From positions 1-64,000 of IMG/VR virus record IMGVR_UViG_3300032011_003203: a DNA stretch of 64,000 nt, one strand, 5' to 3'. The position numbers were made by a program, and so were the translations under genes. The notes under the pieces were generated by a model. That model saw only the letters and a list, made by a program, of their open reading frames with translations. It had not been told where the DNA came from and did no database searches. The DNA comes from a virus. Below are positions 4,621 to 49,981 of this stretch, one piece after another. Positions within the stretch are counted from its first letter, which is position 1; the number at the start of each line of letters is the position of its first letter.

Positions 4621-4629
4621 GAATTTAAA

Positions 4630-5217: not shown

Positions 5218-5218
5218 A

Positions 5219-5704: not shown

Positions 5705-5717
5705 AGGAGATTATATT

Positions 5718-5915: not shown

Positions 5916-5926
5916 GGAGTTACAAA

Positions 5927-6004
5927 ATGGTATTATTATTTAAACTATTGCATGTGCTAACATTTTTAGGTGTTGGTTATTTAGTGTATAAAGAAAGAAA
6001 CTAA
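5927..6004 (+). CDS. 25-residue membrane micropeptide
   Basis: AAGGAG precedes the ATG with normal spacing. The peptide is one hydrophobic helix ending in V-Y-K-E-R-N. It sits snugly between two well-supported genes, with another AAGGAG just after its stop. Function unknown. Confidence 0.5.
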   Translation: MVLLFKLLHVLTFLGVGYLVYKERN

Positions 6005-6015
6005 AAGGAGATTGA

Positions 6016-7570: not shown

Positions 7571-7572
7571 GT

Positions 7573-9787: not shown

Positions 9788-10680
9788 TTAGTTTTATTTT
9801 AAATTTTTGTTCAATAGATAAGGGTAAACATATTCACATACCAGGCACTTGGGGTTCTAACAATTATTATAAAATGGTATCCACTACATTAAAAGTTATT
9901 AAGAATATACAACAACATAAGTTTGAACACGAGATTATATTAATAGATAATTCACATAACTGGCCTAATATTACTTTATCAAATGTAAGAGTTGTAAAGG
10001 GATTTCAATCAATGACAACTAAAGAATTGGAAAATAACAAGTGGTTTAATTTACATAATGATACAGCAAAATTAAGTAGTATGACTTTAGAAAATGATAC
10101 GATGTGGGCATCATTAGGTTTTTATTTGGGTACTAAAGAAGCTAAGTATGATACGATTGTATTACAACATAATGATTTATTCTATTATAATTTTGATGCA
10201 ATTGAGGATATGATTTATGATATGGAAGCAGATGATTTATCATATGTTTCAGTAGATAATAAAAAGGTAACTTTGTTATCATATGTTATACATCAAGAGT
10301 TATTCAATAAATTAATTAAGGGTGATATAGAATTTTCACCAGAACACGGCGGGATGGTTAAGACAAAAGATTTAGGATTTAGTGATGCATATTTCTTTTT
10401 GTGTAAAAAAGATTTCTTTCGTGATTATGATATCGATTGGATATATGGCGATAGTAATCACGGAGCCACAATACATTGTTTAGAAAAGGGTTATAAGTAT
10501 TTACACCTTGGTCCATACTATGATAATCCAAATTATGATACACAAGATACTGGTGAGCATAATATCTATTACTATGATGGACAAAAGTTTGCTTCACATC
10601 TAAAGGGTGGATTCTCTGAAAATAAAATATCAACAAATACTAATAGTACTTTCTATGAGGCATTAGATGAAACTATCTGA
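9784..10680 (+). CDS. Putative glycosyltransferase, GT-A fold
   Basis: 298 residues. It starts with I-S-F-I-L-N-F-C and later has E-I-I-L-I-D-N-S-H-N-W-P-N, resembling the nucleotide-binding start of GT2-like enzymes. A Y-D-T-I-V-L-Q-H-N-D-L-F-Y-Y segment sits where a DxD-type motif is expected but has H-N-D instead. An aromatic, Asp-rich C-terminus ends in a Ser/Thr-rich tail. It overlaps both neighbours in a glycan gene run. Enzyme class is inferred from these features and context. Confidence 0.5.
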   Translation: MISFILNFCSIDKGKHIHIPGTWGSNNYYKMVSTTLKVIKNIQQHKFEHEIILIDNSHNWPNITLSNVRVVKGFQSMTTKELENNKWFNLHNDTAKLSSMTLENDTMWASLGFYLGTKEAKYDTIVLQHNDLFYYNFDAIEDMIYDMEADDLSYVSVDNKKVTLLSYVIHQELFNKLIKGDIEFSPEHGGMVKTKDLGFSDAYFFLCKKDFFRDYDIDWIYGDSNHGATIHCLEKGYKYLHLGPYYDNPNYDTQDTGEHNIYYYDGQKFASHLKGGFSENKISTNTNSTFYEALDETI

Positions 10681-11215
10681 TATAGTAAAGGACAAATTAA
10701 AAACTCTAACTGAAGATTTATATTGGGAAAATAGAGATACTAATTATGGTGTACTTGCATCTATACATTTAGATAAGGATGGTGGGGTTACCGATTTCAA
10801 TACAAATATAGATGTTGATAATTCCAACACAATAGATAATATATTTAAGTACTTAACTAAACACGAATATAAGAGATTAGTTATATTTACAAGAACAGAT
10901 AAAGAGGTTGGTAATAATTACAATGTACCAAACACAGATACATTAAAGGATATAGAGCAAAGATGTACTGATAATATTTTGAACTATTATAACTTTATAC
11001 AGAATCCTTATCCAGATGGAATACCTAAGTTCAAATTAGATTCTGATAGTTTTGGATTGAGATTTGGATTTGATAATACTTGTGAGATAGATAAGATAGC
11101 AGTAAACAAATCATATAGATATGGTGTTCCTATGGTTGATAGTGAAGAACCTACCAAATATAATATAATAATAATGTGTACTAAAATGGGTGTGGAGATA
11201 TTAGATGAAAGATGA
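10667..11215 (+). CDS. Hypothetical protein, 182 residues
   Basis: Acidic, probably soluble protein with no clear motif. It overlaps the previous gene by 14 nt and the next by 11 nt, so it is translationally linked to the glycan cluster. No family recognised. Confidence 0.6.
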   Translation: MKLSDIVKDKLKTLTEDLYWENRDTNYGVLASIHLDKDGGVTDFNTNIDVDNSNTIDNIFKYLTKHEYKRLVIFTRTDKEVGNNYNVPNTDTLKDIEQRCTDNILNYYNFIQNPYPDGIPKFKLDSDSFGLRFGFDNTCEIDKIAVNKSYRYGVPMVDSEEPTKYNIIIMCTKMGVEILDER

Positions 11216-11411
11216 TTTCGTACATTTAAAAGTAAATGGTAACTTGATACAAATTGTTTGTCATAATGAAACACAGCAACAAAAGGTTATAAAGAATATG
11301 ACAGAACCAGGTAAATGTGTATTCGAGGGATACGAACATTGGGAAGATGAAACAGTCATACTTACATTTAGAGTATTAGATTATATTGATATGAAACCAT
11401 CGCAAAACTAA
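11205..11411 (+). CDS. Hypothetical protein, 68 residues
   Basis: Small mixed alpha/beta protein with no recognised motif. It overlaps the previous gene and shares a base with the sulfotransferase start, so it belongs to the same transcript. Confidence 0.55.
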   Translation: MKDDFVHLKVNGNLIQIVCHNETQQQKVIKNMTEPGKCVFEGYEHWEDETVILTFRVLDYIDMKPSQN

Positions 11412-11968
11412 TGTTTATAAATCATACACACAAGTTTATCTTTATTCACATACCAAAGAATGGTGGTACGAGTATTCGTAATTCATTTGATATTAATGGG
11501 TATGATAAAAAGGTAGTAAGAAAGAAGTACCCACACGATGGTACAATGAAGATACGAGATTATTGTGGAGATGAAGTATGGAATACATTTTATAAGTTTG
11601 CAGTTGTTCGTAATCCATATGATAGATTAGTTAGTTATTATCACTTTCATAAATCACCACAATACAGATATCCAGCAAGAGCACAAGAGTTAAGTTTTAA
11701 AGACTGGGTTATGAATGGATTAGATGACAATATAAAGAAAACACAATTCGGATACTTAGCAATGCAACCAGATTACACTATTAGATTTGAAAAACTACAA
11801 GAGGGTTTTGATGATGTATGTAATGGTATTGGTATTGAACCATATGAATTACCACACTATAATAAATCAGAACACGAACCATTCGAAAGTTATTATGATG
11901 ATGAATTAAAGGATATTGTATATGGAATGTTTTTAGTTGATTTTAAAAGATGGGACTACGCTCGCTAG
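11411..11968 (+). CDS. Sulfotransferase family protein
   Basis: 185 residues. The PAPS 5'-phosphosulfate loop H-I-P-K-N-G-G-T-S-I-R lies near residue 14. The 3'-phosphate motif V-V-R-N-P-Y-D-R-L-V-S-Y-Y lies near residue 72, followed by F-K-D-W-V and I-R-F-E-K-L. It would move sulfate from PAPS to a hydroxyl, probably on a carbohydrate. It is shorter than most members (about 220-300), but both cofactor motifs are intact. It closes the glycan cluster. Confidence 0.82.
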   Translation: MFINHTHKFIFIHIPKNGGTSIRNSFDINGYDKKVVRKKYPHDGTMKIRDYCGDEVWNTFYKFAVVRNPYDRLVSYYHFHKSPQYRYPARAQELSFKDWVMNGLDDNIKKTQFGYLAMQPDYTIRFEKLQEGFDDVCNGIGIEPYELPHYNKSEHEPFESYYDDELKDIVYGMFLVDFKRWDYAR

Positions 11969-12043
11969 CTTCAAACTCTATATTATTTCTGCCTTTTCTG
12001 CTACCTACCCATAGTAATATATATGAGAAAATGAAAAAAAACC

Positions 12044-12073
12044 TTGACTTATATTATATTTTTTTCGTATATT
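12044..12073 (+). promoter_or_regulatory. Early-type promoter P3
   Basis: TTGACT (12044-12049), 18-nt spacer, TATATT (12068-12073). The expected transcription start falls on or next to the ATG at 12080, so the mRNA may be leaderless. Confidence 0.75.
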
Positions 12074-12079
12074 GCTTAT

Positions 12080-12595
12080 ATGAATGAGTGTAAAAAATGT
12101 AATGTTCGTATGGATGACCAGAGAATACATCTCGGATATACAGAATGTCCAAGTTGTTCTGAAACAGAAAAGTATTCTGCTCATGTCGTTTATCCACATA
12201 AGACTGGTGCCTTTGTACAACCCGTAACTAAAACAGCTTCTAACAATCTTAAACGAATGGATAGAAGAAGTGTTGGTGGTGGTAGAGTTGCCAAGGGTGT
12301 TTATGTAGATAATAGTTGGGATAGATATTTAGAAGAACTACAAAATCCAACACCACCTAAGAAAAAATTTATACCAAAACCAGTTCGTACAAATTACAGA
12401 AGTTATAATATAATGAGTAAACCTTTAATGAAATATTATAGTAGGTTTGGATATGAACCAGCTTTAAAACAATTAAAAAAGATTTATAAGAATGATAAGA
12501 TTACATTACAAACTTATCAAAGAATACAGACCGATATCAATACTTTACAACAATTACCAGCTAGATTACGCAGGCGGGTACAAAAAATAAATTAA
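12080..12595 (+). CDS. Zinc-ribbon protein, 171 residues
   Basis: The N-terminus holds C-K-K-C (residues 4-7) and C-P-S-C (about 25-28), a zinc-ribbon pattern. The rest is basic, with a proline-rich linker and a helical C-terminus ending in R-R-R-V-Q-K-I-N. An upstream in-frame codon at 12044 lies inside promoter P3 and is rejected. It may bind nucleic acid. No specific family recognised. Confidence 0.65.
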   Translation: MNECKKCNVRMDDQRIHLGYTECPSCSETEKYSAHVVYPHKTGAFVQPVTKTASNNLKRMDRRSVGGGRVAKGVYVDNSWDRYLEELQNPTPPKKKFIPKPVRTNYRSYNIMSKPLMKYYSRFGYEPALKQLKKIYKNDKITLQTYQRIQTDINTLQQLPARLRRRVQKIN

Positions 12596-24598: not shown

Positions 24599-24792
24599 TG
24601 GGTAAGTTAGATACAATAGTAGATTCAGTAACTACCGCAGGTGATACTGATGATGGTTTTAAAGTGAGTGAGGTACTCAAAGGTGATACACGCTTAAAAG
24701 GTGAATCCTATGAGGATTTCAAGATTCGTAGGAAAGCTGAAAAGGGTTTAGTAAGAGATTATCTCAAAGGGAGATTTATACCTAATAAATGA
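24598..24792 (+). CDS. Hypothetical protein, 64 residues
   Basis: GTG start sharing one base with the upstream stop. It ends in a K-G-R-F-I-P-N-K motif and overlaps the deformylase ATG by 4 nt. Function unknown. Confidence 0.5.
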   Translation: MGKLDTIVDSVTTAGDTDDGFKVSEVLKGDTRLKGESYEDFKIRRKAEKGLVRDYLKGRFIPNK

Positions 24793-25415
24793 GACAAGTA
24801 ATTAATTGTTTAAAACACGATAATCCAGTTATTAATAAAAAACTAAGAGAGGTTTCAGTTGAAGAGGGAATGGCTATTGCAACAGAACTATTTCAAATAC
24901 TTAACCAAAGAGGGGACGGCATTGGGTTGGCAGCTAATCAAGTGGGAATTGATGCACAAGTGGCCGTTGTCAATGTTCGTGAACCTTTGGTTCTCATTAA
25001 TCCAAAAATTATCTCAAAAGAAAATGAGTTAGATTTTTACGAGGGATGTTTATCTTATAAAGGCAAGGGTGTTCATACTAAACGATATGAAACAATACAT
25101 GTCCAAACTGCACAAGAAGAGAGTGGTTGGATATTTAGTGGAACACCTAATGCAAGTGAGGGTAAAGGTAGTTGGGAAAAAAATGATAAGGATGAACAAG
25201 AATTAAGATTGTTAGAAACCATATGTGTTCAACACGAGATTGACCACTTGATGGGTAAAACAATATTTGATAGGGAATATAAACCAAAACCTATTATTAG
25301 TGAAAAGAAATTTGGAAGAAACGAACTTGTTACAATAAAAAGAAATGATGCCGTTAAGGTATTAAAGTACAAGAAAGCAAAATCATTTTTAGATGATGGT
25401 TGGGCAATTAATTAG
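24789..25415 (+). CDS. def: Peptide deformylase
   Basis: 208 residues. All three deformylase motifs are intact: G-I-G-L-A-A-N-Q-V-G, E-G-C-L-S-Y with the metal Cys, and Q-H-E-I-D-H-L with the metal His pair and catalytic Glu. It removes the formyl group from new proteins. An insertion of about 35 residues before the third motif and a basic C-terminal extension of about 40 residues are extra. Phage deformylases are known from marine myoviruses. Confidence 0.93.
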   Translation: MRQVINCLKHDNPVINKKLREVSVEEGMAIATELFQILNQRGDGIGLAANQVGIDAQVAVVNVREPLVLINPKIISKENELDFYEGCLSYKGKGVHTKRYETIHVQTAQEESGWIFSGTPNASEGKGSWEKNDKDEQELRLLETICVQHEIDHLMGKTIFDREYKPKPIISEKKFGRNELVTIKRNDAVKVLKYKKAKSFLDDGWAIN

Positions 25416-25431
25416 TTATGGAGAAAATAAT

Positions 25432-25713
25432 ATGAGATTAAACTTATATAACAGATTCCTAAAATTTATGGGACACAAAGTTCCAGTTTGGGTAATCTTA
25501 GTAATAATGAATTTCTATTGGTTAACTACTTCAGTATATGATGTGGTAATTCAAAAAGGTTTTCAGATGGCAATAAACCAAATGGAGAACGGAGAATTAA
25601 CAGTCTTAGAGGGAAGAGTTACACCAAGTGGGAGATTAAAAAGAATAGAGGAATTTTTAGGAATGCCTCGTAATGTACAAACAGATAAACCAATCATAAG
25701 GAAGAAAAAGTAA
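25432..25713 (+). CDS. Small membrane protein, 93 residues
   Basis: One transmembrane helix at about 15-35 (P-V-W-V-I-L-V-I-M-N-F-Y-W), then a charged C-terminus. The ATG at 25432 is preferred because the in-frame upstream start lies within the deformylase gene. Function unknown. Confidence 0.55.
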   Translation: MRLNLYNRFLKFMGHKVPVWVILVIMNFYWLTTSVYDVVIQKGFQMAINQMENGELTVLEGRVTPSGRLKRIEEFLGMPRNVQTDKPIIRKKK

Positions 25714-25955
25714 TGGCAGGATTCAGAGGTAGACCAAGTAATAAAAGACCAATAGTAGAAGCAATCAGAAGAAAATGTGTTGGTTGTGGTAAGATTAAGG
25801 AAGTTAAATTTAAGAAGTATTGGATTCCATCTTTTACTTTAGAAAAGGATATTCCAGCTTACAGCAAGAATGGTCCGAAGAAAGAACGATTAGAACGCAA
25901 GGGTGCGACAGTTAAGTACTATTGTGAGTATGATTGTTATCAAGAGAATAGGTAA
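25713..25955 (+). CDS. Small Cys-containing basic protein, 80 residues
   Basis: Basic protein with C-V-G-C-G at about residue 23 and C-E-Y-D-C near the end, a likely zinc site. ATG overlaps the previous stop. Confidence 0.6.
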   Translation: MAGFRGRPSNKRPIVEAIRRKCVGCGKIKEVKFKKYWIPSFTLEKDIPAYSKNGPKKERLERKGATVKYYCEYDCYQENR

Positions 25956-26128
25956 TGTCTAAAAAGAAATCTATATACGATTCAGGAACTACCAAAGGTT
26001 CAGCACCAAGAACATCAAACAAAAAGAAGTATGATGAAAATTGGGAAAAAATCTTTGGTAAGAAGAAAGATAAAAAAGAACCAAGTCCAAATGAATATGG
26101 GGATGATGATTATGCAACACCTGATTAG
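25955..26128 (+). CDS. Hypothetical protein, 57 residues
   Basis: ATG overlaps the previous TAA. The protein is Lys/Ser-rich and disordered-looking, with an acidic end (E-Y-G-D-D-D-Y). The next gene overlaps its 3' end. Confidence 0.5.
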   Translation: MSKKKSIYDSGTTKGSAPRTSNKKKYDENWEKIFGKKKDKKEPSPNEYGDDDYATPD

Positions 26129-26243
26129 AAAAATACTTTGGTATTTGGGAAATTTGAAGCATATATATTTTATGTATCAATACAAGAAACACTTAAAAAT
26201 GAGAATTGAAAAAAATAACTTTGGAAGAAATGAAGAATGGTAA
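26103..26243 (+). CDS. Hypothetical basic protein, 46 residues
   Basis: Begins with GGGG just upstream and encodes an aromatic, basic peptide with K-I-L-W-Y-L-G-N-L. It overlaps the end of the previous gene and the start of the UV endonuclease. A longer frame upstream exists, but it lies wholly over the previous gene. Confidence 0.4.
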   Translation: MMIMQHLIRKILWYLGNLKHIYFMYQYKKHLKMRIEKNNFGRNEEW

Positions 26244-27190
26244 ATAATAAAATCGGTTATGCGTGTATCAATATGCAACTTAGTTATCCTACTAAGTATG
26301 GTAATAAACCAAAAGGTACACAACCTATCACAACAAATCGTAGTATGATTAAAAGAACCTTTACAGAGAAAGGTGTTGATTATGCTTCAGAACTTATCCT
26401 ACAAAATGTAAAAGATTTAAACTCAATCATTAATTGGAATATATTAAATGGTTACGATTTCTATCGTATGAGTAGTGATATCACGCCTTGGAAAACTGAG
26501 TATGAATGGAGTGACCTAAAAGATATTACAGAAATCAAACAATGGTTACATTCTGCTGGTACACTCGCAACTACTCACGGAATTAGATTAACAACACATC
26601 CAGGCCCTTTCAATGTATTGGTTTCACCACACGAGCATGTAGTGGATAATTGTGTAAAGGACTTAACAATACACGGAGATGTTATGGATATGATGGGATT
26701 ATCTCGTACACCATACAATAAAATTAATATACATCTTGGTGGTGTCTATGGTGATAAACAATCTGCTATGGATAGATTTTGTAAAAACTTTTCTAAGTTA
26801 CCAATGAGTGTACAAACAAGATTGACTGTCGAGAACGACGACAAGGCATCAATGTATTCAGTAAAGGAGTTATACGATGGAATATACAAACGAATTAATA
26901 TCCCTATTGTGTTTGATTATCATCACCACAGATTTTGTGATGGTGGTTTATCGGAACAAGAAGCGTTAGAATTGGCAATGTCTACTTGGGGAGATATCAA
27001 ACCAGCAGTTCACTATTCTGAATCAAGAAGTATTGAACAAGAGGATACAAAAATTCGACCACAGGCACATTCAGATTATGTGTATGATTATATCGATACA
27101 TATGGTAATGGTGTTGATATTATGGTTGAGGCAAAAGCTAAAGAGTTAGCAGTAAACAAATATAAACAAATACACATAAAGGAGTTATAG
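26237..27190 (+). CDS. UV DNA damage endonuclease, UvdE/UvsE family
   Basis: 317 residues. The TIM-barrel repair endonuclease marks are I-G-Y-A-C-I-N at the N-terminus, R-M-S-S-D-I-T-P, H-L-G-G-V-Y-G-D-K, T-V-E-N-D-D, F-D-Y-H-H-H, H-Y-S-E-S and M-V-E-A-K-A-K-E with the metal ligands. It nicks DNA 5' to UV photoproducts. Useful for a sunlight-exposed phage. Confidence 0.9.
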   Translation: MVNNKIGYACINMQLSYPTKYGNKPKGTQPITTNRSMIKRTFTEKGVDYASELILQNVKDLNSIINWNILNGYDFYRMSSDITPWKTEYEWSDLKDITEIKQWLHSAGTLATTHGIRLTTHPGPFNVLVSPHEHVVDNCVKDLTIHGDVMDMMGLSRTPYNKINIHLGGVYGDKQSAMDRFCKNFSKLPMSVQTRLTVENDDKASMYSVKELYDGIYKRINIPIVFDYHHHRFCDGGLSEQEALELAMSTWGDIKPAVHYSESRSIEQEDTKIRPQAHSDYVYDYIDTYGNGVDIMVEAKAKELAVNKYKQIHIKEL

Positions 27191-30254: not shown

Positions 30255-31874
30255 ATGAAAAAATGGTTTTATGAGAGAAGTAAATTCTCTGAGTTTAAAT
30301 CGAATACGACTTATCATAAGTTGTTAAAGATGTCAGTAGAAGAGTTTAATGATTGGGCACGATTACTTAGACAAGAAGTTACTACTCAATGGGATGAATA
30401 CGGAACACCACCCGTAATCGGTAAAGATGAAGATGGTATCATTAAGAAATTCAAAAAACTAAAAGACAATCCTTGTGATTATTTAATTGAAGATAATACT
30501 GGTGATGATGAATCACTTGGTATAATTAAGAACTTCAATAAAGATGCGAGTAGTGTTAATCAGTTCTTTCCAACAATGTTAAAAACAAAAATCAGTATTG
30601 GTGCATCAGCCGATAATGGTTTATCTATCTATGACCACTTTGGTGACCCAGAGTTAGAAGATAAGTTTGTTCACATTATGCGTAGAGCAGTAAAGAAAGA
30701 TTCTATGTATAGTTGGAGTAGAAGTATCGTAACTAAGAAAGATGAGAATCCTTTTTGGAATGGTGAGACTGGTAAAGAATTTATTAAGAATGTTTATGAT
30801 GGTAAAGTTTCTATTGGTAAATATTCAGATACAAGATTTGTACTTGCAAGAGTAAAGAAAAGTACAGTCGGTAATTATGGTACTATGAATGAAGAGTTTA
30901 AAGGACACGGAAATGTTTATTTAACTGCAGAGGAAGTACAAGATTGTAAGGATAGTGGTTATTTAAATGATACACAATTAAGTAACATACCAGATATAGT
31001 TTCATCTGAAACAAGTAAGACTGGTAAAGTAACTGAGTTCTTATATCTAATTAGACACTATGATAAAACTATTGGAATCTTTCCAAAGATATTACAAGTG
31101 TTTAGATTAGCGTGTGGACAACCTGCAGTAAACTTTCCACCACTAACAGCAAAACTTTTGTATGAAAAATTTACAGACCATATAGATAATCAAGAACAAA
31201 CATTTCATATCTATGACCCATCAAGTGGTTGGGGTGGTAGAATTTTAGGAGCAATGAGTTCTCGTAAGAATATACACTATGTTGGTACAGACCCTAATCC
31301 AGATAATTTAGGTAGATATCAAGCAGTTGCTGATTTCTATAATAATAATTGTGTTGATGATTTCTCTGAAAACTTTAATAAGTTTTTTGATGTAGAAAAA
31401 CAATCAAACACATATGAAGTATTTAGTGATGGTAGTGAATTAATATCTAACAATCCAGCATTTCAAAAATATAAAGGTAAGTTGGATGTAGTATTTACAT
31501 CACCACCATATTTTAATCGTGAACAATATTCTCAAGATGAGAACCAGTCGTTCAAGGCCTATGGTGAGTATCAAGACTGGAGAGATAACTTCTTAGAACC
31601 CACATTACGAACCGCTTACGAGTATCTAAAGAATGATAGATATATCCTTTGGAACATCGCAAGTATCAAAATAGGTGCAAATACTTATTATGATTTAGAG
31701 GGTGATAGTAGAAAAATCTTAGAAGAACTTGGGTGTGAATATAAAGGTAAATTAAAAATGTTAATGACAAGAATGATTGGGTTAGACCCATCTAAGACTG
31801 GAATTTTAAATTCAGTACAACACGATAATAATGTGTATAAGTTTGAACCAATATTTGTGTACTATAAAAGATGA
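30255..31874 (+). CDS. DNA methyltransferase-like protein with large N-terminal domain
   Basis: 539 residues. The C-terminal part has a SAM-binding segment Y-D-P-S-S-G-W-G-G-R-I-L-G then V-G-T-D-P-N, and the catalytic motif F-T-S-P-P-Y-F (S416-P-P-Y), typical of N4-cytosine or N6-adenine methyltransferases. The first 300 residues match no family I recognise and are lysine-rich and aromatic. Its 3' end overlaps the thymidylate-synthase-like gene. It may modify phage DNA or nucleotides. Confidence 0.75.
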   Translation: MKKWFYERSKFSEFKSNTTYHKLLKMSVEEFNDWARLLRQEVTTQWDEYGTPPVIGKDEDGIIKKFKKLKDNPCDYLIEDNTGDDESLGIIKNFNKDASSVNQFFPTMLKTKISIGASADNGLSIYDHFGDPELEDKFVHIMRRAVKKDSMYSWSRSIVTKKDENPFWNGETGKEFIKNVYDGKVSIGKYSDTRFVLARVKKSTVGNYGTMNEEFKGHGNVYLTAEEVQDCKDSGYLNDTQLSNIPDIVSSETSKTGKVTEFLYLIRHYDKTIGIFPKILQVFRLACGQPAVNFPPLTAKLLYEKFTDHIDNQEQTFHIYDPSSGWGGRILGAMSSRKNIHYVGTDPNPDNLGRYQAVADFYNNNCVDDFSENFNKFFDVEKQSNTYEVFSDGSELISNNPAFQKYKGKLDVVFTSPPYFNREQYSQDENQSFKAYGEYQDWRDNFLEPTLRTAYEYLKNDRYILWNIASIKIGANTYYDLEGDSRKILEELGCEYKGKLKMLMTRMIGLDPSKTGILNSVQHDNNVYKFEPIFVYYKR

Positions 31875-32557
31875 TAGTAATTAAAGCAAACTCACCAACA
31901 GATGCTTGGATAAAATCACACGAGTATCTTTTAGAAAATGGTAACAAAGATGTGATGAATGAAAGTATTAATATGTCGGTAGAGATAGAAGATAACTTTG
32001 ATACAGAACCTAAGTTCGATGGATTGTTTAGAGAAATCTTTGGTGATGATAGAATAGATTATGCAAGTTCAGTTACATTTGTTAAACCAACAGAACATCC
32101 TTTTATGGATGAATTACAATTCCAACAAAATGATACTAAAGTAAAGTGGAACAAAACTTATTGGGGTAGAATGATTAATTGGGATAATAGTTTCAATCAA
32201 ATAGAACAAGTTATAAAAAGATTAAAAGAACATAAGAATAGTAAAACAATTGCAATGAGTATCTACGACCCGAAATCAGATGGTAGAAAAACAATGAGTG
32301 GAATGCCTTGTTTATTATCAATAGATTTAAAACCAAGAAAAGATGGATTGTATTTAACAGCATTCTTTCGTAGTATGAGAATTAGTAAGAGTGGTTATGC
32401 TGATTGGGTTGCGTTGTGTGAGATGGCAAAGTTCTTATGTGAACAAGCAGATTTAAAATTAAAAAGAGTTACAACAATTGGTGGTTCAGTTCATCTTGGT
32501 GATATGAATAACGAAAAGAAAAATGTCAAGGAGTTACTTAGTGTGTGGAATAGTTAG
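31871..32557 (+). CDS. Thymidylate-synthase-like protein (possible dCMP/dUMP hydroxymethylase)
   Basis: 228 residues. The fold marks are W-G-R-M-I-N-W, I-A-M-S-I-Y-D-P, S-G-M-P-C-L-L-S with the catalytic Cys (C147), L-T-A-F-F-R-S-M-R matching the QRS region, and an end like G-S-V-H-L. The usual P-F-N after QRS is replaced by a Y-A-D-W segment, which could shift base choice from uracil to cytosine as in dCMP hydroxymethylase. That alignment is by eye. It overlaps the genes on both sides. Confidence 0.6.
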   Translation: MIVIKANSPTDAWIKSHEYLLENGNKDVMNESINMSVEIEDNFDTEPKFDGLFREIFGDDRIDYASSVTFVKPTEHPFMDELQFQQNDTKVKWNKTYWGRMINWDNSFNQIEQVIKRLKEHKNSKTIAMSIYDPKSDGRKTMSGMPCLLSIDLKPRKDGLYLTAFFRSMRISKSGYADWVALCEMAKFLCEQADLKLKRVTTIGGSVHLGDMNNEKKNVKELLSVWNS

Positions 32558-34046
32558 TACGGTCAATCATAGTGATGAAGTTGTACACGATATGTTACTT
32601 CAAATTGAACACAGAGGTAGGGATAATCGAGAGATTTTTGAGAGTGGTAATGTTCACCTGGGCCACAATAGATTAAGTATAAATGATGTGAGTGAAGCAG
32701 GAAATCAGCCATTTGTTTGGAATGATTATGCACTTGTAGTTAATGGTGAGATATGGAACTATCCACAATTAAGAAAAGAATATGAAGAACGAGGTTATAC
32801 ATTTTTTAGTAATAGTGATTCAGAAATAATTTTATATCTATACAAAGAAAATGAATTAAAAAGATTAGAGGGTATGTTTAGTTTTGTATTGCATGATACC
32901 TTAACTAATGAGTTAGTTGTATCGAGAGATTGGGTTGGTAAGATTCCATTATACATTTATAACAATGATACAAATATTTTAATTGCATCTGAAATGAAAT
33001 CAATATTAAAAATATTACCACAAGCAGAATGTAAGTTTGTTCCAAAAAATTCAGTAGTTAGAATAAATACAATTACTGGTTCAGTACATATTGATAAAGA
33101 TTACTATTTTACTTGGACACCATTTGAGGATAAAGAGTTTGACCAAGATGAGGTTAACAAAAAAACTTATGAGTTGTTAGATACTGCAGTAGAGAAAAGA
33201 TTATTAAGTGATGTTAAGGTTGCAACTTGTTTAAGTGGTGGTATTGATTCAAGTGTAATTACTTATTTGTTAAGTAAGAAAGTACCTGATATCGTATCTT
33301 ATACAGTCAAGTTCGATGAGGATTCAAGAGATTTAATGTTTGCAAGAATGGTTGCAGAACATATCAATGTACCATTGGTTGAGGTTGAGATACCAAGAGA
33401 CCCAGAAGAATTAAAAAGAAAATTTTTAGAAACAATAAAGGTTATAGAATATCCATCAACAGTCCAAATGGAAGTTGGTATTCTACAAAGTTATGTTGCC
33501 GAGAAAATGGCAGAGGATGGTGTTAAGGTTGCGTTTAGTGGTGAGGGTTCTGATGAATCGTATGGTTCATATGGTACATTCAGAATGTTCAGTAAGAAAC
33601 CAGATTGGAGTGATGTACGAAAGAAATTATTTGAGAAACAATACTATGGTAATTTACTTCGTGGGAATAATATCTTTATGAATTATGGAACAATAGAATT
33701 AAGATGTCCATTCTTTGATTTAGATTTTTTAGATTACACTACTAACCTTACACAACCAGTATTAGATAATAGTGGAAACCAATGGAAGAAACCACTTGCT
33801 GAAGCATTTCGTGGACACTTACCAGATGAGGTATGTGACCAAGAGAAACGAGCATTTCAAAAAGGAACAAACTTCAAAGAGTATATAGAAGATGTAATTC
33901 TAAATGATACAGATATAAATTTTAAAAATAGAAAAAAACTATTTCATTGTATCGGAGATAACTTTGAAAGAATATTTGGTTTCAAACATAAAGGTATGAG
34001 AGATACTTTATCTGGCACTGAAAATGGATTTGGGAAATGGATATAA
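32541..34046 (+). CDS. Asparagine-synthetase-like glutamine amidotransferase
   Basis: 501 residues from GTG 32541, with AAGGAG at 32527. This start puts Cys at position 2, as needed for the N-terminal glutaminase (V-C-G-I-V), while the longer frame buries it. The glutaminase has H-R-G-R-D, H-N-R-L-S-I and V-N-G-E-I-W-N. The synthetase half has the pyrophosphatase loop L-S-G-G-I-D-S-S (from 231) and later G-E-G-S-D-E. It would amidate a carboxylate with ATP and glutamine. It lies in a cassette with TS-like and PLP-fold genes, so the substrate may not be aspartate. Confidence 0.85.
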   Translation: MCGIVSTVNHSDEVVHDMLLQIEHRGRDNREIFESGNVHLGHNRLSINDVSEAGNQPFVWNDYALVVNGEIWNYPQLRKEYEERGYTFFSNSDSEIILYLYKENELKRLEGMFSFVLHDTLTNELVVSRDWVGKIPLYIYNNDTNILIASEMKSILKILPQAECKFVPKNSVVRINTITGSVHIDKDYYFTWTPFEDKEFDQDEVNKKTYELLDTAVEKRLLSDVKVATCLSGGIDSSVITYLLSKKVPDIVSYTVKFDEDSRDLMFARMVAEHINVPLVEVEIPRDPEELKRKFLETIKVIEYPSTVQMEVGILQSYVAEKMAEDGVKVAFSGEGSDESYGSYGTFRMFSKKPDWSDVRKKLFEKQYYGNLLRGNNIFMNYGTIELRCPFFDLDFLDYTTNLTQPVLDNSGNQWKKPLAEAFRGHLPDEVCDQEKRAFQKGTNFKEYIEDVILNDTDINFKNRKKLFHCIGDNFERIFGFKHKGMRDTLSGTENGFGKWI

Positions 34047-34882
34047 TACAAACACCAATAGAAACTTATACATTAAATGGTATCGATGTTGATGTCAAGA
34101 GAGATGATTTAGTTGGTGATGGAGTTAACTTTCCACGATGGGCAAAGATAGAGGGTATAAGAAAAATATTAGAGAGTGATGATATTGATAAATCAAAACC
34201 ACTAACTCACTTATCAGTTTATGGAAGTTGGACTGGATGGACATTAAGTAAGTTGTGTAAAGAGTATGGTATAGAATTTATTTCTGCTTATCCAGATACA
34301 CAAAAGTTTCCACAAGTATTGTTAGAACGAGTAGAGGGTAATGGTGGTAAGTTACATCCGATGAGACCTAATATGATGGCGTTTATGCAAAACAAATTAA
34401 ACACACAAGCAAAAGAAAATGGTTGGCAACAATTACCATACGCATTCAATCATCCCGCATACATTAGTTATATGGGGGCAAGAATGAGAGAAGTTTTAAA
34501 AGATAGGGAATATGATAACCTTGTTGTTAGTATTGGTAGTGGTGTTACTGCAAGTGGATTAATAAAAGAATTTTTAGAGTACGGAGATGATTGGTGGAAG
34601 TTAAATAACGAATCAAGAAAAGTTTATTCTATTACGATGAGTGCATTCTCATCAACAAAAAAGATTTTAAATGAGAATCACGCTGGTGATTTGAAAAATA
34701 TAATACTCGAAAAATCACCATATGCATTTGATGATATGATGGATGATTATAAAGTACCATTTGATTGTAATGAATTTTGGGACAAGAAACAATGGTATTG
34801 GTTAGAGGATAATATACAGAAACTTAAAGGGAAAACTTTATTTTGGAACATTGGTGGTTCTTATTTAAATTCAATAAAATAA
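34037..34882 (+). CDS. PLP-fold (type II, ACC-deaminase-like) protein, Schiff-base lysine apparently missing
   Basis: 281 residues. V-K-R-D-D-L-V-G-D near residue 20, L-S-V-Y-G-S-W-T-G-W, and V-S-I-G-S-G-V-T-A-S-G-L match the ACC deaminase/D-cysteine desulfhydrase family. The usual G-N-K-x-R-K that carries the PLP lysine reads V-N-F-P-R-W here, so Lys appears to be Phe. It may be a non-catalytic relative or use a shifted Lys. It overlaps the AsnB-like gene by 10 nt. Confidence 0.6.
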   Translation: MDIIQTPIETYTLNGIDVDVKRDDLVGDGVNFPRWAKIEGIRKILESDDIDKSKPLTHLSVYGSWTGWTLSKLCKEYGIEFISAYPDTQKFPQVLLERVEGNGGKLHPMRPNMMAFMQNKLNTQAKENGWQQLPYAFNHPAYISYMGARMREVLKDREYDNLVVSIGSGVTASGLIKEFLEYGDDWWKLNNESRKVYSITMSAFSSTKKILNENHAGDLKNIILEKSPYAFDDMMDDYKVPFDCNEFWDKKQWYWLEDNIQKLKGKTLFWNIGGSYLNSIK

Positions 34883-35728: not shown

Positions 35729-35988
35729 TGATATTAGAAATATTTGCAGTAGTATGTTTTATATTAAGTTTTACACTTGCGTGGACTTCATATAATCAAA
35801 TACAAAAAGTAGAAAGATTAGAAGAGTGGGTTGAGAACTTCTCAGCTCAAATCATTCTAACACAACGAACACTTGATGAATTAGATTCAGAGGGTAAGTT
35901 CAAATCCGATGATGAAATCGGAACAGTCTTTACAGCAATTAAAGACACTGTCAATGATTTAAACAAAATAACAGAAGAGGATATATAA
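35728..35988 (+). CDS. Small membrane protein, 86 residues
   Basis: N-terminal transmembrane helix (residues 3-21), then a coiled, acidic C-terminal half. Stop-start overlaps with both neighbours place it in the same unit as gp55. Confidence 0.6.
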   Translation: MILEIFAVVCFILSFTLAWTSYNQIQKVERLEEWVENFSAQIILTQRTLDELDSEGKFKSDDEIGTVFTAIKDTVNDLNKITEEDI

Positions 35989-36710
35989 TGCCAAGAAAAG
36001 CAAAAAAGGGTTCACCACGATATTACTTTCATCAAGGAACTGAAGATGCAATCATTCGCTTGAATAAAGAAACTCGTGCTCATATGAAAGAACGAATTTA
36101 TAATGAACATATTCGTACACCATTTGAGAAACTTGCTGAGAATATAATTCATACATTTAAGTTTTATTACTTTGATGTTCCAAGTGAGGATGTTAAACAC
36201 GAAGTGGTTTCATTCTTATATATGAATATTCACAAATTTGCTGAGGGTAAGGGAAAGGCATTTAGTTATTTCAGTATTGTTGCTAAGAACTATTTGATTC
36301 TACACAACAACAATAATTACAAGAAGATGAAACAACACGATAGTGAGGATGTGATGGATTATAAAAGAGACCCAGTCACAGAACTTCGTGGTAAAGAATC
36401 TCGTAGTATGAAGATGGAGTACATCGAACAACTTGCTGATTATTGGAGAAATAATTTAACTACAGTCTTTAAACGAAAGAAAGATTTGGATGTTGCTAAT
36501 TCGGTAGTAGAGTTAATTGATATGAGACATAATATCGATAACTTTAATAAGAAAGCATTATACATTCTTATTCGTGAAATGACTGGTTCTAATACACAAC
36601 ACATAACTCGTGTAATTAATGTGATGAAGAAACATCATAACAATTTACACAAGGCATATTTAACTACTGGCTCGGTTGATACTAAACGAACTGGTAGTTG
36701 GTTTGAGTGA
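35988..36710 (+). CDS. T4 gp55-like late-transcription sigma factor
   Basis: 240 residues. The segment L-A-E-N-I-I-H-T-F-K-F-Y-Y-F-D-V-P then D-V-K-H-E-V and K-A-F-S-Y-F-S-I-V-A-K-N-Y-L-I strongly resembles gp55 of T4 and marine relatives. The latter is the sigma-region 2-like core. It would direct host RNA polymerase to late promoters, probably the TATTTATW boxes described here. A sliding clamp co-activator is not in this window. Confidence 0.82.
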   Translation: MPRKAKKGSPRYYFHQGTEDAIIRLNKETRAHMKERIYNEHIRTPFEKLAENIIHTFKFYYFDVPSEDVKHEVVSFLYMNIHKFAEGKGKAFSYFSIVAKNYLILHNNNNYKKMKQHDSEDVMDYKRDPVTELRGKESRSMKMEYIEQLADYWRNNLTTVFKRKKDLDVANSVVELIDMRHNIDNFNKKALYILIREMTGSNTQHITRVINVMKKHHNNLHKAYLTTGSVDTKRTGSWFE

Positions 36711-37525
36711 AGTTATATCAACAAGATTGGAATTATCGGAAAAACAATACCGATAAATATCCAGAGTTAAAAGCTATTACATCATATCCAAATTCTTTTT
36801 GGTTAACAAGGAATCCTAAGAAACCAAAACTTGGTAGAAAGTTAACTCATAGTATTCGAAGATTGTGTAGAAGAGCACATCCAGCTCAACCAGTTATAGT
36901 TTTATATGCTATACCTGGTAGAGATATGGGTGGACATTCAAAGGGTGGTTTAACAGAAAAACAATATCTAAAATATGTTGGTGATATTGCTTTAGGTATT
37001 GGAAATTTTAAACCAATAATTATTTTTGAACCAGATGCAATTCCACATATGAGAAAGATGAATTTCTTTCAACGAACTAATCGTACAAGGTTGATTAAAA
37101 AAGCTTTAGGTTTATTATCAAATACCAATGCACAAGTATATCTTGATATTGGACATCCAAATTGGTTAAAGAAAACAGATGCTGCAACTTATCTTAATTT
37201 ATTTAACAAAGGTGATATAAAGGGTTTTTCTATTAATGTGAGTAATTTCGTAACAACAGATAAGTGTTTACGATATGGTGATAAAATATCTGAAGAAACA
37301 AATTTAAATTATGTTATAGATACATCAAGAAATGGTAACGAGGTTTGGGAAACATTCAATCCACAAGATATGAAACTTGGTGAAGAACCTACTATCAGAA
37401 CTAATTCAAGAAAGTGTGATGCTTATCTTTGGATTAAAACACCAGGTGAAAGTGATGGTGCTGTAAATGGTTGGCCTAAAGCTGGTAGATTTAATGCTAA
37501 AAAAACCTTATCTCTTATAAATTAA
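36707..37525 (+). CDS. Glycoside hydrolase family 6 (cellulase family) enzyme
   Basis: 272 residues, GTG start overlapping gp55's stop. GH6 marks run in order: L-Y-A-I-P-G-R-D-M-G-G-H-S with the catalytic Asp, I-I-F-E-P-D-A, V-Y-L-D-I-G-H-P-N-W, S-I-N-V-S-N-F, V-I-D-T-S-R-N-G, and L-W-I-K-T-P-G-E-S-D-G. GH6 enzymes cut beta-1,4-glucan. No signal peptide is visible, so it may be a virion or lysis-released depolymerase. GH6 in a phage is unusual to my knowledge. A terminator follows. Confidence 0.85.
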   Translation: MKLYQQDWNYRKNNTDKYPELKAITSYPNSFWLTRNPKKPKLGRKLTHSIRRLCRRAHPAQPVIVLYAIPGRDMGGHSKGGLTEKQYLKYVGDIALGIGNFKPIIIFEPDAIPHMRKMNFFQRTNRTRLIKKALGLLSNTNAQVYLDIGHPNWLKKTDAATYLNLFNKGDIKGFSINVSNFVTTDKCLRYGDKISEETNLNYVIDTSRNGNEVWETFNPQDMKLGEEPTIRTNSRKCDAYLWIKTPGESDGAVNGWPKAGRFNAKKTLSLIN

Positions 37526-37558
37526 AAAGGGGGAACTCGGATAAGCTCCCCCTTTATT
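37526..37558 (+). terminator. Terminator hairpin between converging genes
   Basis: AAAGGGGGA pairs with TCCCCCTTT (37547-37555), with one mismatch and CT/AG closing near the loop. A-run and T-run flank it, so it could stop transcription from both strands: the GH6 gene on the left and the minus-strand gene on the right. Confidence 0.7.
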
Positions 37559-37576
37559 TAGTCATCCGATATAGTA

Positions 37577-37798
37577 CTACTTACGGAATAAACCCACCAA
37601 CACCAATAATGCGACTAATCCAGCGAAACCAGATTCGCCGAAATTATTAATAATTGCTGTTAGGTTACCAATAACATTAACGCCGAAGATACCGCTTCCG
37701 AATATAATTTCAGAAACCGCACCAATGGCTACCAGCGATAACATCAGTTGAGCTAAGTCATCTGCGTATCCTTTTACGAGTGTTATGATTTCCTTCAT
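37577..37798 (-). CDS. Small two-helix membrane protein, only minus-strand gene
   Basis: 73 residues with two hydrophobic stretches (about 15-35 and 52-70), Gly/Phe-rich, ending in G-L-F-R-K. GGGAG lies 12 nt upstream on the minus strand. Nothing overlaps it on the + strand, and it faces a terminator hairpin. It could be a holin-like or virion membrane protein; no family recognised. Confidence 0.6.
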   Translation of the reverse strand: MKEIITLVKGYADDLAQLMLSLVAIGAVSEIIFGSGIFGVNVIGNLTAIINNFGESGFAGLVALLVLVGLFRK

Positions 37799-44944: not shown

Positions 44945-47900
44945 ATGTTACAATATGGTTTAACAGATAAAGACAGAGAACAATTAGAATATCCTAAACA
45001 ATTGTATAGTGGTTTTGGTAGAGATGCTAATGACTTCATACATTTCTATGTCTATGATATGGAGGATAATTTATTAGAAGATGATATCCTAAAACCAGGT
45101 GATGTTTTATTCAGAGACGATAATACTATTGATTTAGATATTGGTGGACACGTCAGAGATTTAGGTTATGAAGAAGGTCAATTTAAAGTTAAGTATCTTT
45201 TTCTTAGACGATTAGCTGGTAAAAAAGAAACCATTATGGTGAACGATGAGGGATTCATCAATATGGGAAAAATTTCTACTAAAGTTATTAATGGTAAGAC
45301 AAGATATTTTAAAGGTGGAATGAAACCTACTAACCAAACATTAGAAGAAGTATTTCCAAAAGAAATGAAGTATGTGGTGAAAGAAGTATCACCATCAAAG
45401 AATGAAGTAAAAGTAGATGTCCAATTAATTAATAATGTTTCTTATCGTAAAAACTTTGCTGGTATAAATAAAGATTTTGTTTATGTACCAAAAAGAATTG
45501 GTGGTGCAAATGCAGGAACAGTCAGATGGGATAAAACTGATGGTAATGTTTTAATAATGACACCAGGTGTTGGTGAACGAGGATTTACAGATGCAATGGT
45601 TGGTGGTGAAGTTGTTGTTAAGGGTATGTATGAATACACTTTAACAGAAACTAAAATGGTAGAGACACTTGTTAGAAAAGAAACAGAAGTTTTAATTAAT
45701 AGACCTACGAAAAGCATACCACCAAGACCAGATGAAAAGAAAGAGTTCTTTGATGATATTGTAAAAACTACAGTCGATAAAGAACCTGTCGGAGTAAAAG
45801 AAATATTAGAAAAGACACCAGGCCCAGACCAAGATTATGATGATTATAGAGATAGGGATGATTATGGAAGTGTTTGTTTTACTGGTGATACAAAAATTAA
45901 ATTAAGTAACAATCGTACCATTCCAATTAAAATGATGAGACCTGGTATGAAAGTTAAAACCGAACAAGGTTATGCAAAAGTATTAAAGGTAGTTAAAGAT
46001 AACAGACCTTACGGAGATAAATTAGTTCGTTATAAAAATCTTACCACTACAGACCATCACCCGATTAAACATCAAGGTAAATGGTATTTAGCAAATGAAG
46101 TTGGTACAGAATTTAAAGCTGAGGCATTAGATGTTTGGAATCTAATACTGGACAAACACCACACTATCATTGCTAACAATATAACATCTGCAACACTTGG
46201 TAAGTGGAATAGTATTGAACATTTCTTAGGTGTTAGAGATAGAAGAATTAATATGTTGAGGGTTGCAGAAGATTTTGAAGATACTGGTGGAGGTGGTGGT
46301 TCATATGTACCACCAGCAGACCCATCACCATCAGACTCAGTAATAGAAGAGATAATGACTGAGGTAGGAGATAATATACAAACAGATGATGAGGTTGTTG
46401 ATGAAAGAGGATATGCAAAAGGATTAGAACCTACTAATGAATATATTGTTGATAGGAGACCAAAAGCTTTTACAAAAGAAATAATTGAAGATTTTGCTAC
46501 TGATGAAGATTCAATAGCAAAATATAAAACAGTCGTTACATTTGATACTGAATTAGTTCCAATTGATGTATTTAAACAAGTACCAGTTGATTATGTTGGT
46601 AAGGTTGTTGAAATTTTAGATTTCGATAGAATACGAGTTGATACATCTTACGAAGAGGGAGCAAACAAATCAGACCATAGTGGGCCAGATAGATTCAATG
46701 ATATCTTTACAGATTCATTTGTAACATATAGAAAAAACAAGATAACAAGATTAAATACTTATATGGTTACTAAAGAGGGATATCATTTATGTATTAATAT
46801 GTTAGATGCCCCAACACAAACTTTACCTGATAGTGATAAAAAATTACCAATAAGAGATGTAGCAGATAGAACTGCTCGTTATGTTAAAACTTATAAACCA
46901 TTACCAGATACAATTGAACAAAATGATTTAGTTTATTTCGTAGAAGAAAAAATGGAGCCATACGAAGATATGGTTAAGATAACTAAATTTGTAGAAGAGG
47001 ACCCCGTAGCATTATTTTTAAGAGTTCCAAATTTAAATTCAACAACCAATCCAATTAATTTTAGAAGTACTAATTTTAAAAAGTATGATGATTTAATTGG
47101 AACTGATACTTCAGTTCAAGATGATATAACGAATCACATACACTCAAGTAGTTTATTAGATGTACAATTGGGTATTGATTATTCCATACGAACTGATGCA
47201 CTTGGTAGTGATAGAACTGATTATGGATTTGGAAACTTTGTTAATTTTGGTGGAGCGGAAAATAGAATAAGAAACTTTAAAAAGAAGATAAAATTAATTG
47301 AGGGTTATAAAACTGATTCACATGCATTGATAAATATTACATCATCTGCAGATACTCGTGCAAATATTAATATGAGAAAACGAGAAGTTATAAATAGTTT
47401 TGACCCATATGAAAATTATCTATATACAGTCTCATCAAGTTATGCAACAAGTTCTCTTGGTGAGTTCTATGATGCATCTTGGCCTAAGACAAGTGGTTCA
47501 AGAGAAGATGGCACAAACTTTATATTAGAACATACAAGTGGTTCAACATTTACTACTTGGTTTGATACTTGGACTGGATACGCAAAAGATTTCGATACAT
47601 ACAATCAGAATAGATTGGTAAATAATTTACCACTGCATGTAGCAAGTGATACTGAGAATAAAGTATTCTTAGATTTTATGGATATGACAGGACAACAATT
47701 TGATGAGATATGGGGATACATAAGACACTTTACAGATATCAATGAACGAAGTAATAAATTATCAGAGGGTATCTCTAAAGATATAGTTCGTGAAGTTGCA
47801 AAGAGTATGGGTTTTGAAGTTGATAGTGGAAATGATTTAGTTATTTTACCAGAATACTTATTAGGTAAAACAGCAGATGGTCAAGATAAATACGAATCAC

Positions 47901-49981
47901 CACAAGAAGCCGTAACCGAAGAAATATGGAAAAGAATTTTAGCTAATATGCCATTCTTTATGAAGAACAAAGGTAACCAACGAGCAATGAAAGGTTTGAT
48001 AAATTGTTATGGTATTCCAAGTTCTATTTTAAGAATTAGAGAATATGGTGGACCAGATTTAAATGATAGAGTTAGTCACGAAATAAAAAGAAAGTTTAGT
48101 TACGCTGCTGATTTTAAATCAAGTGAGTATTTACAATTTCCTTGGCAAGATGATAGTACAAGTGGAATCAAACCAGAAACTTTAGAATTTAGATTTAGAG
48201 CACCAACATCAAAGGATATGACATTAGTTCAAAAGGGTGTTGGTAATCATAGTTTTGCAATTCAAATACAAGATAATGGATTAACTGATGCTTATGGTAA
48301 ATTAAAATTTAGTGTATCTGCATCAACAGGTATTCAATTTATGACATCATCACTACAACCATATTATAATAATGATATGTGGAGTGTGATGTTAACACGA
48401 GTATCACAAAGTGGGTTAGATTTAACTGCAGATGGAAATGCACAAGATATAACATATCAGTTAACATCAAAACAATATGATGCTACAAGACAAGTTATTT
48501 TATATCAAACAAGTGAAAGTGTAAATATAGATGGAAATGCTTCAGCAGGAGCAGCGTTTAATAAATCAGTACACGATGATGGTACATTTTATATAGGTGG
48601 TAACGGAGAGTTTGGTACAAGATTTAGTGGTTCAATGCAAGAGTTTAGATTGTGGAGTGAACCATTATCACAAAGTGTATTTGATAATCATGTCCAAGCA
48701 CCAAAGAGTTATAATGGTAATACAACAAGTTCTGCATATGATAATTTAATATTTAGATTACCATTAAATGATAATACTGATTTAAATACTTTACCAGAAT
48801 CACTTGATGATAAATCTTACACTACAAGTTATTTTCCAAGTGCGAGTGCAGTTGGATTTAGTGGTAATCCATTTAGAAGTTTAGTAGACCAAGAAAAACT
48901 AAGAGTTCCAAATGTAGGACCGTCTCGTAGAAATGCAACAAAGATTAGAACTGAGGCAACAAAACTAACTGGTAACTTATCTTCTAATATTAGAGTTGAA
49001 GCATCATCGTTAGATTTTGCACCAATAGATAGTAATAAACTTGGAGTATTCTTCTCACCTACAGATGTAGTAAATGAAGATATAATGTATTCATTAGCAG
49101 ATATAAATCTTGATAATGAAATTGGAGACCCAAGAGACCAATATTCTGATTACTATCGTGGATTAGATAGAGTACAAAGAGATTATTGGAAAAAATATAA
49201 TCGTTCAAATAACTTTTGGGATTATATGAGAATTATAGAATTTTTTGATGGTAGTATATGGAAACAATTAAGAGCAATGATTCCAGCAAGAACAAATGCA
49301 ACACTTGGTTTATTAATAGAACCAAATATTTTAGAACGAAGTAAACAAGTTGTAGGAAAAATACCAGAGTTTGAAAATACATATTATGAAAATGCTGGAC
49401 ACTTTGCAGATGGAATACAATTATCAAGTAGATTAAGTAGTTCCGATTCACCAAATCCATATTCACTATCTGGAGAATATCCAGTATATGAAAGTGAAAT
49501 AATATTATACACAATGGATAGTGGTTCGGTTGGAATATTAGGAAATCCAACATTGAACAAAATAGATGAGATAGACCCACGAACACCATTCTTATCATTA
49601 TACGCAACAGCAAGTATTACATTTGGTGATATAGATACAACATTTGAAGAGACAGTTCAACCCTTTATAACTGCTTCTCGTTTATCAGAACACAACGATA
49701 TTAAAGTTCCTTACTATACGAGTTCATTATCAGATTCGATAGCAAAAGGATATGGATATCACACAGAATTTAATGGAAACTATCAATTTAGTGCATCATT
49801 CGAGAGAAGTTCATTTACAAGTGTAGCACTCGATTCTTCACTATTTAGATTGTTTTATAAAGGTAGTAATTTAACAAAAGATAACACAATAGATGGACTA
49901 GACCCAGTCGAAATAACAATTACCACACCTACTAAGTTGGTAACACAAGAACCTGGTGATTCTAAGTTAAAAGTTGAGTAA
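44945..49981 (+). CDS. Giant baseplate/tail protein with embedded Hint domain and LamG-like domain
   Basis: 1678 residues. Residues 311-421 form a Hint domain: C311-F-T-G-D-T-K-I at its start, then T-T-D-H-H-P-I-K and the end H-H-T-I-I-A-N-N-I-T. A Gly-rich linker follows. About 1075-1290 is a LamG/ConA-like domain with F-R-L-W-S-E-P-L and Y-I-G-G-N-G. Other parts are acidic and Tyr-rich. There is no clear intein splice junction after the domain, so it is probably autoproteolytic rather than spliced. Position fits a large baseplate protein near gp7/gp10. Confidence 0.8.
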   Translation: MLQYGLTDKDREQLEYPKQLYSGFGRDANDFIHFYVYDMEDNLLEDDILKPGDVLFRDDNTIDLDIGGHVRDLGYEEGQFKVKYLFLRRLAGKKETIMVNDEGFINMGKISTKVINGKTRYFKGGMKPTNQTLEEVFPKEMKYVVKEVSPSKNEVKVDVQLINNVSYRKNFAGINKDFVYVPKRIGGANAGTVRWDKTDGNVLIMTPGVGERGFTDAMVGGEVVVKGMYEYTLTETKMVETLVRKETEVLINRPTKSIPPRPDEKKEFFDDIVKTTVDKEPVGVKEILEKTPGPDQDYDDYRDRDDYGSVCFTGDTKIKLSNNRTIPIKMMRPGMKVKTEQGYAKVLKVVKDNRPYGDKLVRYKNLTTTDHHPIKHQGKWYLANEVGTEFKAEALDVWNLILDKHHTIIANNITSATLGKWNSIEHFLGVRDRRINMLRVAEDFEDTGGGGGSYVPPADPSPSDSVIEEIMTEVGDNIQTDDEVVDERGYAKGLEPTNEYIVDRRPKAFTKEIIEDFATDEDSIAKYKTVVTFDTELVPIDVFKQVPVDYVGKVVEILDFDRIRVDTSYEEGANKSDHSGPDRFNDIFTDSFVTYRKNKITRLNTYMVTKEGYHLCINMLDAPTQTLPDSDKKLPIRDVADRTARYVKTYKPLPDTIEQNDLVYFVEEKMEPYEDMVKITKFVEEDPVALFLRVPNLNSTTNPINFRSTNFKKYDDLIGTDTSVQDDITNHIHSSSLLDVQLGIDYSIRTDALGSDRTDYGFGNFVNFGGAENRIRNFKKKIKLIEGYKTDSHALINITSSADTRANINMRKREVINSFDPYENYLYTVSSSYATSSLGEFYDASWPKTSGSREDGTNFILEHTSGSTFTTWFDTWTGYAKDFDTYNQNRLVNNLPLHVASDTENKVFLDFMDMTGQQFDEIWGYIRHFTDINERSNKLSEGISKDIVREVAKSMGFEVDSGNDLVILPEYLLGKTADGQDKYESPQEAVTEEIWKRILANMPFFMKNKGNQRAMKGLINCYGIPSSILRIREYGGPDLNDRVSHEIKRKFSYAADFKSSEYLQFPWQDDSTSGIKPETLEFRFRAPTSKDMTLVQKGVGNHSFAIQIQDNGLTDAYGKLKFSVSASTGIQFMTSSLQPYYNNDMWSVMLTRVSQSGLDLTADGNAQDITYQLTSKQYDATRQVILYQTSESVNIDGNASAGAAFNKSVHDDGTFYIGGNGEFGTRFSGSMQEFRLWSEPLSQSVFDNHVQAPKSYNGNTTSSAYDNLIFRLPLNDNTDLNTLPESLDDKSYTTSYFPSASAVGFSGNPFRSLVDQEKLRVPNVGPSRRNATKIRTEATKLTGNLSSNIRVEASSLDFAPIDSNKLGVFFSPTDVVNEDIMYSLADINLDNEIGDPRDQYSDYYRGLDRVQRDYWKKYNRSNNFWDYMRIIEFFDGSIWKQLRAMIPARTNATLGLLIEPNILERSKQVVGKIPEFENTYYENAGHFADGIQLSSRLSSSDSPNPYSLSGEYPVYESEIILYTMDSGSVGILGNPTLNKIDEIDPRTPFLSLYATASITFGDIDTTFEETVQPFITASRLSEHNDIKVPYYTSSLSDSIAKGYGYHTEFNGNYQFSASFERSSFTSVALDSSLFRLFYKGSNLTKDNTIDGLDPVEITITTPTKLVTQEPGDSKLKVE

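Follow-up and report, generated by a model that had tools for sequence, protein, structure and literature searches.

What might a phage do with a cellulase? The question arises from a gene in the window that we analysed, a stretch of 64,000 nucleotides comprising positions 1 to 64,000 of the IMG/VR record IMGVR_UViG_3300032011_003203. The family concerned, GH6, is known from textbooks as a family of secreted cellulases. A sequence-only reading of the window had recognised the gene as a GH6 member and suggested, from its place beside a presumed late sigma gene, that it encodes a depolymerase for a host exopolysaccharide or gives help with lysis.

The family assignment is sound. The 272-aa protein matches PF01341 with E=1.7e-43 and 150 bits (cut-off 27), residues 16-254 aligning to positions 13-298 of the 305 in the profile; its best phmmer match in the PDB is M. 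tuberculosis Cel6 (E=1.6e-45), and the PHROG search gave no match. The three segments on which the sequence-only reading had relied are all present (RDMGG at residues 72-76, NVSNF at 177-181 and DTSRNG at 205-210), as are the EPDA and GESDG motifs with both catalytic aspartates, D110 and D250. The ORF begins with GTG, a start backed by homologues whose own GTG or TTG start lies at the same position (VKLY, LKLY). Pairwise dN/dS among GH6 genes of the window type (group A, below) is about 0.08-0.34 by the Nei-Gojobori method, and purifying selection on the gene is clear; an open, conserved frame with dN/dS in this range puts the ORF far beyond chance. Every one of the 24 records tested carries a single copy.

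Table 1. The GH6 gene, its flanking elements and its active-site codons (window positions). Residue tallies refer to 187 phage and 80 cellular locus entries, with some contigs represented twice.
Feature	Position	Strand	Remarks
Conserved upstream protein, left slot edge	35988..36710	+	240 aa; 4-base overlap with GH6 start
GH6 endo-beta-1,4-glucanase-like gene	36707..37525	+	272 aa, single domain, without signal peptide; PF01341, AlphaFold2, VIA-align
D73 codon (RDMGG)	36923..36925	+	Asp in 186/187 phage entries (1 gap), 80/80 cellular
D110 codon (EPDA)	37034..37036	+	Asp in 187/187 phage entries, 78/80 cellular
D147 codon (YLDIGH)	37145..37147	+	Asp in 187/187 phage entries, 80/80 cellular
D250 codon (GESDG)	37454..37456	+	Asp in 185/187 phage entries (2 gaps), 80/80 cellular
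Terminator-like hairpin with T-rich tail, 3' of GH6	37526..37558	+	fold of 37520-37562, -15.7 kcal/mol
Hydrophobic convergent gene, right slot edge in most relatives	37577..37798	-	73 aa; 70/79 slots

The predicted structure agrees with this assignment. An AlphaFold2 model built from 65 sequences (mean pLDDT 92.9, pTM 0.92), which took the place of an earlier 13-sequence model (pLDDT 73.6) with the same Foldseek ranking, has the distorted barrel fold of GH6. In VIA-align 2 it superimposes on M. tuberculosis Cel6 (1up0) with Z 36.5 and an rmsd of 1.8 A over 268 residues, and on T. fusca Cel6A with Z 34.5. All 50 structure matches listed (Z 28-36) are GH6 enzymes or scaffolds derived from GH6; the endoglucanases Cel6 and Cel6A (Z 34-36) rank above the tunnel-forming cellobiohydrolases (Z 28-30). 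This ranking, taken with the length of the protein, favours an endoglucanase-like enzyme over a cellobiohydrolase. With the model as query, Foldseek retrieved no entry from BFVD at E<=0.001.

The window protein has all four aspartates of the active site. From the alignment and prior knowledge we take D73 to be the equivalent of T. fusca Cel6A D79, D110 that of the GH6 catalytic acid (T. fusca D117), D147 that of T. fusca D156, and D250 that of the proposed base (T. fusca D265). D110, D147, W153 and N180 are identical in all 187 phage entries, and Y67, R72, D73, R208, K244 and D250 are so in all save one or two gapped entries; the other subsite residues tested, Y67, W153, N180, K244 and E248, are also conserved in phage GH6. 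We conclude that the window gene codes for a member of the GH6 cellulase family whose active site is intact.

Where the phage proteins depart from the family is in the features of secretion. A hydrophobic stretch N-terminal to the domain is found in 94% of cellular but only 1% of aquatic-phage entries. The position after R-D is Cys in 80/80 cellular entries, whereas nearly all aquatic-phage entries have L, M, I or V there; the second cellular Cys (75/80) falls in a gap in 167 of 180 aquatic-phage entries. The other two Cys columns, each occupied in 80/80 cellular entries, hold Cys in 108/180 and 27/180 phage entries. In GH6 structures these columns are known to form disulfide pairs. Phage GH6 domains do still carry other Cys, with a mean of 4.8 per domain. 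Secreted bacterial GH6 has an export signal and conserved disulfides; the aquatic-phage branch lacks the signal almost throughout, has lost the first of the conserved Cys pairs, and appears to have shed one or both family disulfides. The missing signal, together with the lost first pair, suggests a cytosolic enzyme, that is, one that folds and remains in the cytosol.

Phage genes of this kind are widespread. Two overlapping IMG/VR profile scans found 187 and 205 related stretches, of which the best 80 of each were taken. Among the 50,697 records of INPHARED we found GH6 only in Streptomyces phage Gilgamesh (two records) and in one unverified faecal phage scaffold, and these belong to other lineages than the aquatic-phage branch. 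The best cellular matches listed (genome_contigs) are 34-43% identical, mostly have export-type N-termini, and come mainly from Actinomycetota, with candidate-phylum and myxobacterial genomes besides. One of the GH6 contigs, L131, is labelled as a Klebsiella pneumoniae MAG; its protein has an export-type N-terminus and groups with a candidate-phylum sequence, and the species label looks doubtful.

In a tree of 73 rows, a single branch (SH-aLRT 100; stem length 0.85 changes per column) sets all 38 aquatic-phage representatives apart from the rest, and the Gilgamesh-type sequences are placed elsewhere. The method was quick and the cellular GH6 sequences were chosen by similarity, so there may be an unsampled bacterial donor. 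No alignment column cleanly separates phage from cellular GH6 at the thresholds set, gap columns excluded. On this tree aquatic-phage GH6 is one phage-only branch, apart from the sampled bacterial GH6 and from the Streptomyces-phage lineage. We regard it as a real, distinct phage form of a known enzyme family.

The branch occurs in at least three genomic settings, in large tailed phages from water metagenomes. In group A, which includes the window, GH6 follows the conserved 240-aa protein and precedes the convergent 73-aa membrane protein, after which come baseplate genes (gp25-like at 40711, E=1.9e-13, and gp6-like at 41165). In group B it follows a conserved 139-aa protein, with gp32-like, UvsX-like and 5'-3' exonuclease genes near. 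In group C the gene before it encodes a peptide deformylase in 54 entries and a glutaredoxin-like protein in 10. The 73-aa gene is absent from the contexts of groups B and C.

For the window family we took relatives of the 240-aa neighbour and looked at what lies between this gene and the next conserved one, which resolved 79 slots. GH6 stands together with the 73-aa gene in 14/79 (interval 1233-1248 bases), the 73-aa gene stands without GH6 in 56/79 (often 408-460 bases), and 9/79 have neither, including those of Flavobacterium phage immuto, Microcystis phage Mel-JY01 and the metagenomic phage LR756508. A clean empty site is seen in L284, where the neighbour's stop codon is followed by the hairpin and the 73-aa gene; a similar hairpin at the same place, likewise without GH6, is found in L289. 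On the tree of the neighbour protein, GH6 must have been gained or lost three times, with two of these events forced by starred branches. GH6 is optional, swappable cargo in the window's phage family, and its neighbours therefore say little about its function.

The slot itself (window 36711-37576 and the matching interval in L282-L351) is hypervariable, holding GH6, other cargo or nothing. By eye, the other cargo includes DNA methylase-like, HNH-type, large (509-558 aa) and short lipoprotein-like proteins, and the slot of L288 holds a tRNA-like sequence.

This bears directly on the suggestion of a depolymerase or a lysis aid. Its argument from adjacency finds no support, the gene lying in an optional slot here and elsewhere beside peptide deformylase or gp32/UvsX genes. 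The supposed late sigma neighbour is neither proven nor disproven as such: the 240-aa protein, about 40% identical to homologues in immuto and Mel-JY01, has no significant match in Pfam, PHROG or PDB, and as a candidate T4 gp55 it was rejected on an hhalign probability of only 12.5%. The T4-type late promoter TATAAATA has 15 matches against 15.6 expected by chance, and its matches therefore carry no timing information. No holin or endolysin was recognised near GH6, and an Rz-like match two genes upstream is weak (E=0.026). The placement of GH6 supports neither a tail nor a lysis role. A depolymerase or lysis-aiding role is nonetheless possible on other grounds, as the enzyme looks cytosolic and would be set free by lysis.

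The reading that we prefer, with a probability of roughly 45%, is that of a catalytically competent cytosolic GH6 endo-beta-1,4-glucanase, carried as optional cargo, that is freed by lysis, cuts a beta-1,4-linked glucan and so aids the progeny. What the computation shows is the family, the fold, the conserved active site, the missing export signal, the place in a cargo slot and the purifying selection; hydrolytic activity, substrate, release by lysis and benefit are what we infer here. The enzyme would be made in the infected cell and accumulate in its cytosol until host lysis set it free; it would then cut beta-1,4-linked glucan, either a host-made cellulose-like exopolymer or nearby matrix, and this would make escape or spread of the progeny easier. 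A bolder version, in which the phage-only, cytosol-adapted GH6 is a dedicated weapon against a host-made cellulose-like polymer, deployed at lysis and exchanged between several separate lineages of large tailed phages in oceans and other waters, we put forward as speculation that is rather unlikely to hold.

The strongest competitor keeps the enzyme inside the cell, as an auxiliary metabolic enzyme that cuts nascent or imported beta-1,4-glucan or oligosaccharides and thereby supplies sugar or blocks polymer synthesis. No large cytosolic pool of beta-1,4-glucan is known in bacteria, and no beta-glucosidase or sugar transporter was recognised adjoining GH6 in the neighbourhoods examined; the cytosolic features of the phage protein, however, suit this explanation well. 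So do the neighbours of many relatives, which are peptide deformylase, glutaredoxin-like, ferredoxin-like and 2OG-oxygenase-like proteins; in the deformylase-type contexts GH6 stands among metabolic and takeover genes, and this also suits an intracellular role. Virome reports from Mariana Trench sediments (PMC8725595) and the Aral Sea basin (PMC9948696) likewise class viral GH6 as auxiliary metabolic genes. We consider such a role on the unlikely side, yet a serious contender.

The 73-aa protein, probably with two TM segments and putatively holin-like in size and hydrophobicity (it has no match in Pfam, PHROGs or INPHARED), invites another explanation, in which it serves as a holin that lets GH6 across the membrane, there to act on an envelope glycan from within, in the manner of an endolysin. 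In the window family a cytosolic-type glycanase does have a small, hydrophobic membrane protein beside it, but the 73-aa gene is convergent, is kept in the 56 slots without GH6 and is missing from the other two contexts; nor are GH6 enzymes known to cut peptidoglycan. We judge this lysis role improbable.

A depolymerase associated with the virion or tail is less probable still. What speaks for it is the GH6 of Streptomyces phage Gilgamesh, which has an extra N-terminal region and adjoins minor tail genes, but that protein is of a separate lineage. Neither fusion nor location ties the aquatic form to a tail module: it is a single domain without a tail-attachment region, its group A slot precedes the baseplate genes, its contexts elsewhere are unrelated, and in two of the three contexts it is outside the tail module. 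Slightest of all is the chance that the GH6 fold has been repurposed for another glycan (for example phage or host glycans from phage glycosyltransferases) or a non-catalytic role, for while the loop before the NP motif is altered in group A (EVWETFNP against GNEWCNP) and the window encodes GT25-like, UDP-glucose dehydrogenase-like and sulfotransferase-like proteins, the four aspartates and Y67, W153, N180, K244 and E248 are all conserved.

As to the host, the baseplate, primase and neighbour proteins of the window are closest to those of Mel-JY01, immuto and LR756508 (36-46% identity). The Flavobacterium phage among these relatives prompted us to consider a Bacteroidota host. This is unlikely because of Shine-Dalgarno usage: such motifs precede 45% of the window's ATG ORFs (17% in shuffles) but 0/32 in the immuto stretch, which in this differs from the GH6-bearing relatives. 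Shine-Dalgarno usage may serve as a simple host clue for uncultured phages. A cyanophage origin was also considered and rejected; no psbA-type (PF00124) match was found in 50 GH6-bearing records, many of them fragments.

We record some other genes of these phages. In the window, a 1678-aa tail-region protein (44945-49981) has a Vint/Hint domain (PF14623, 6.3e-19); another protein, at the end of the genome record (L181:16916-17764), shows a Hint-like CFIAGTEILM motif by eye. L181 also has a single 4329-aa ORF (L181:3497-16486) that is rich, by eye, in SGS/ISGSG-type repeats and probably encodes a giant tail fibre. A row of genes at window 30255-34882 (DNA methylase-like, thymidylate synthase-like, asparagine synthase-like, PLP-dependent-enzyme-like) may be a DNA base modification cassette. 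The many host-type genes at window 1010-12595 and 24789-27190 include carbamoyltransferase, UDP-glucose dehydrogenase-like, SAM synthetase, GT25, sulfotransferase, peptide deformylase and UvdE.

If the enzyme is active, host-made beta-glucan would perhaps often stand in the way of aquatic phages during infection or serve them as a resource, and glucan makers might be the place to look for the hosts of these uncultured phages. The findings also advise caution against reading such phage genes simply as an aid to the degradation of plant or algal cellulose, because cellulose outside the cell is beyond the reach of a cytosolic enzyme until lysis. Our search of openly licensed papers found no account of a signal-less phage GH6 branch without the first Cys pair, or of its slot.

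Among known systems, the viral GH6 genes of the two virome reports cited above are listed there just as cellulase homologues, and we liken them to ours by description, not by sequence. A soil viral chitosanase (PMC9485262) is reported to have been shown active; it too is a virus-carried glycan hydrolase, but a different enzyme and one tested experimentally. Streptomyces phage Gilgamesh gp72 and five related IMG/VR sequences are likewise phage-encoded GH6, although they form a separate branch with bacterial GH6, keep the second Cys pair, and have an N-terminal extension and minor tail genes near. The secreted endoglucanase Cel6 of M. tuberculosis (1up0, 1uoz) is alike in fold and active-site residues, with 37-38% identity over the whole domain; the sampled bacterial family members have an export-type N-terminus and two conserved Cys pairs, whereas the phage protein has no export signal and no Cys after RD. 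The GH6 endoglucanase Cel6A of T. fusca (1tml, 2bod) shares the fold and the catalytic residues at 29-30% identity; compared with it, the phage protein is cytosolic in character and stands on a branch of its own.
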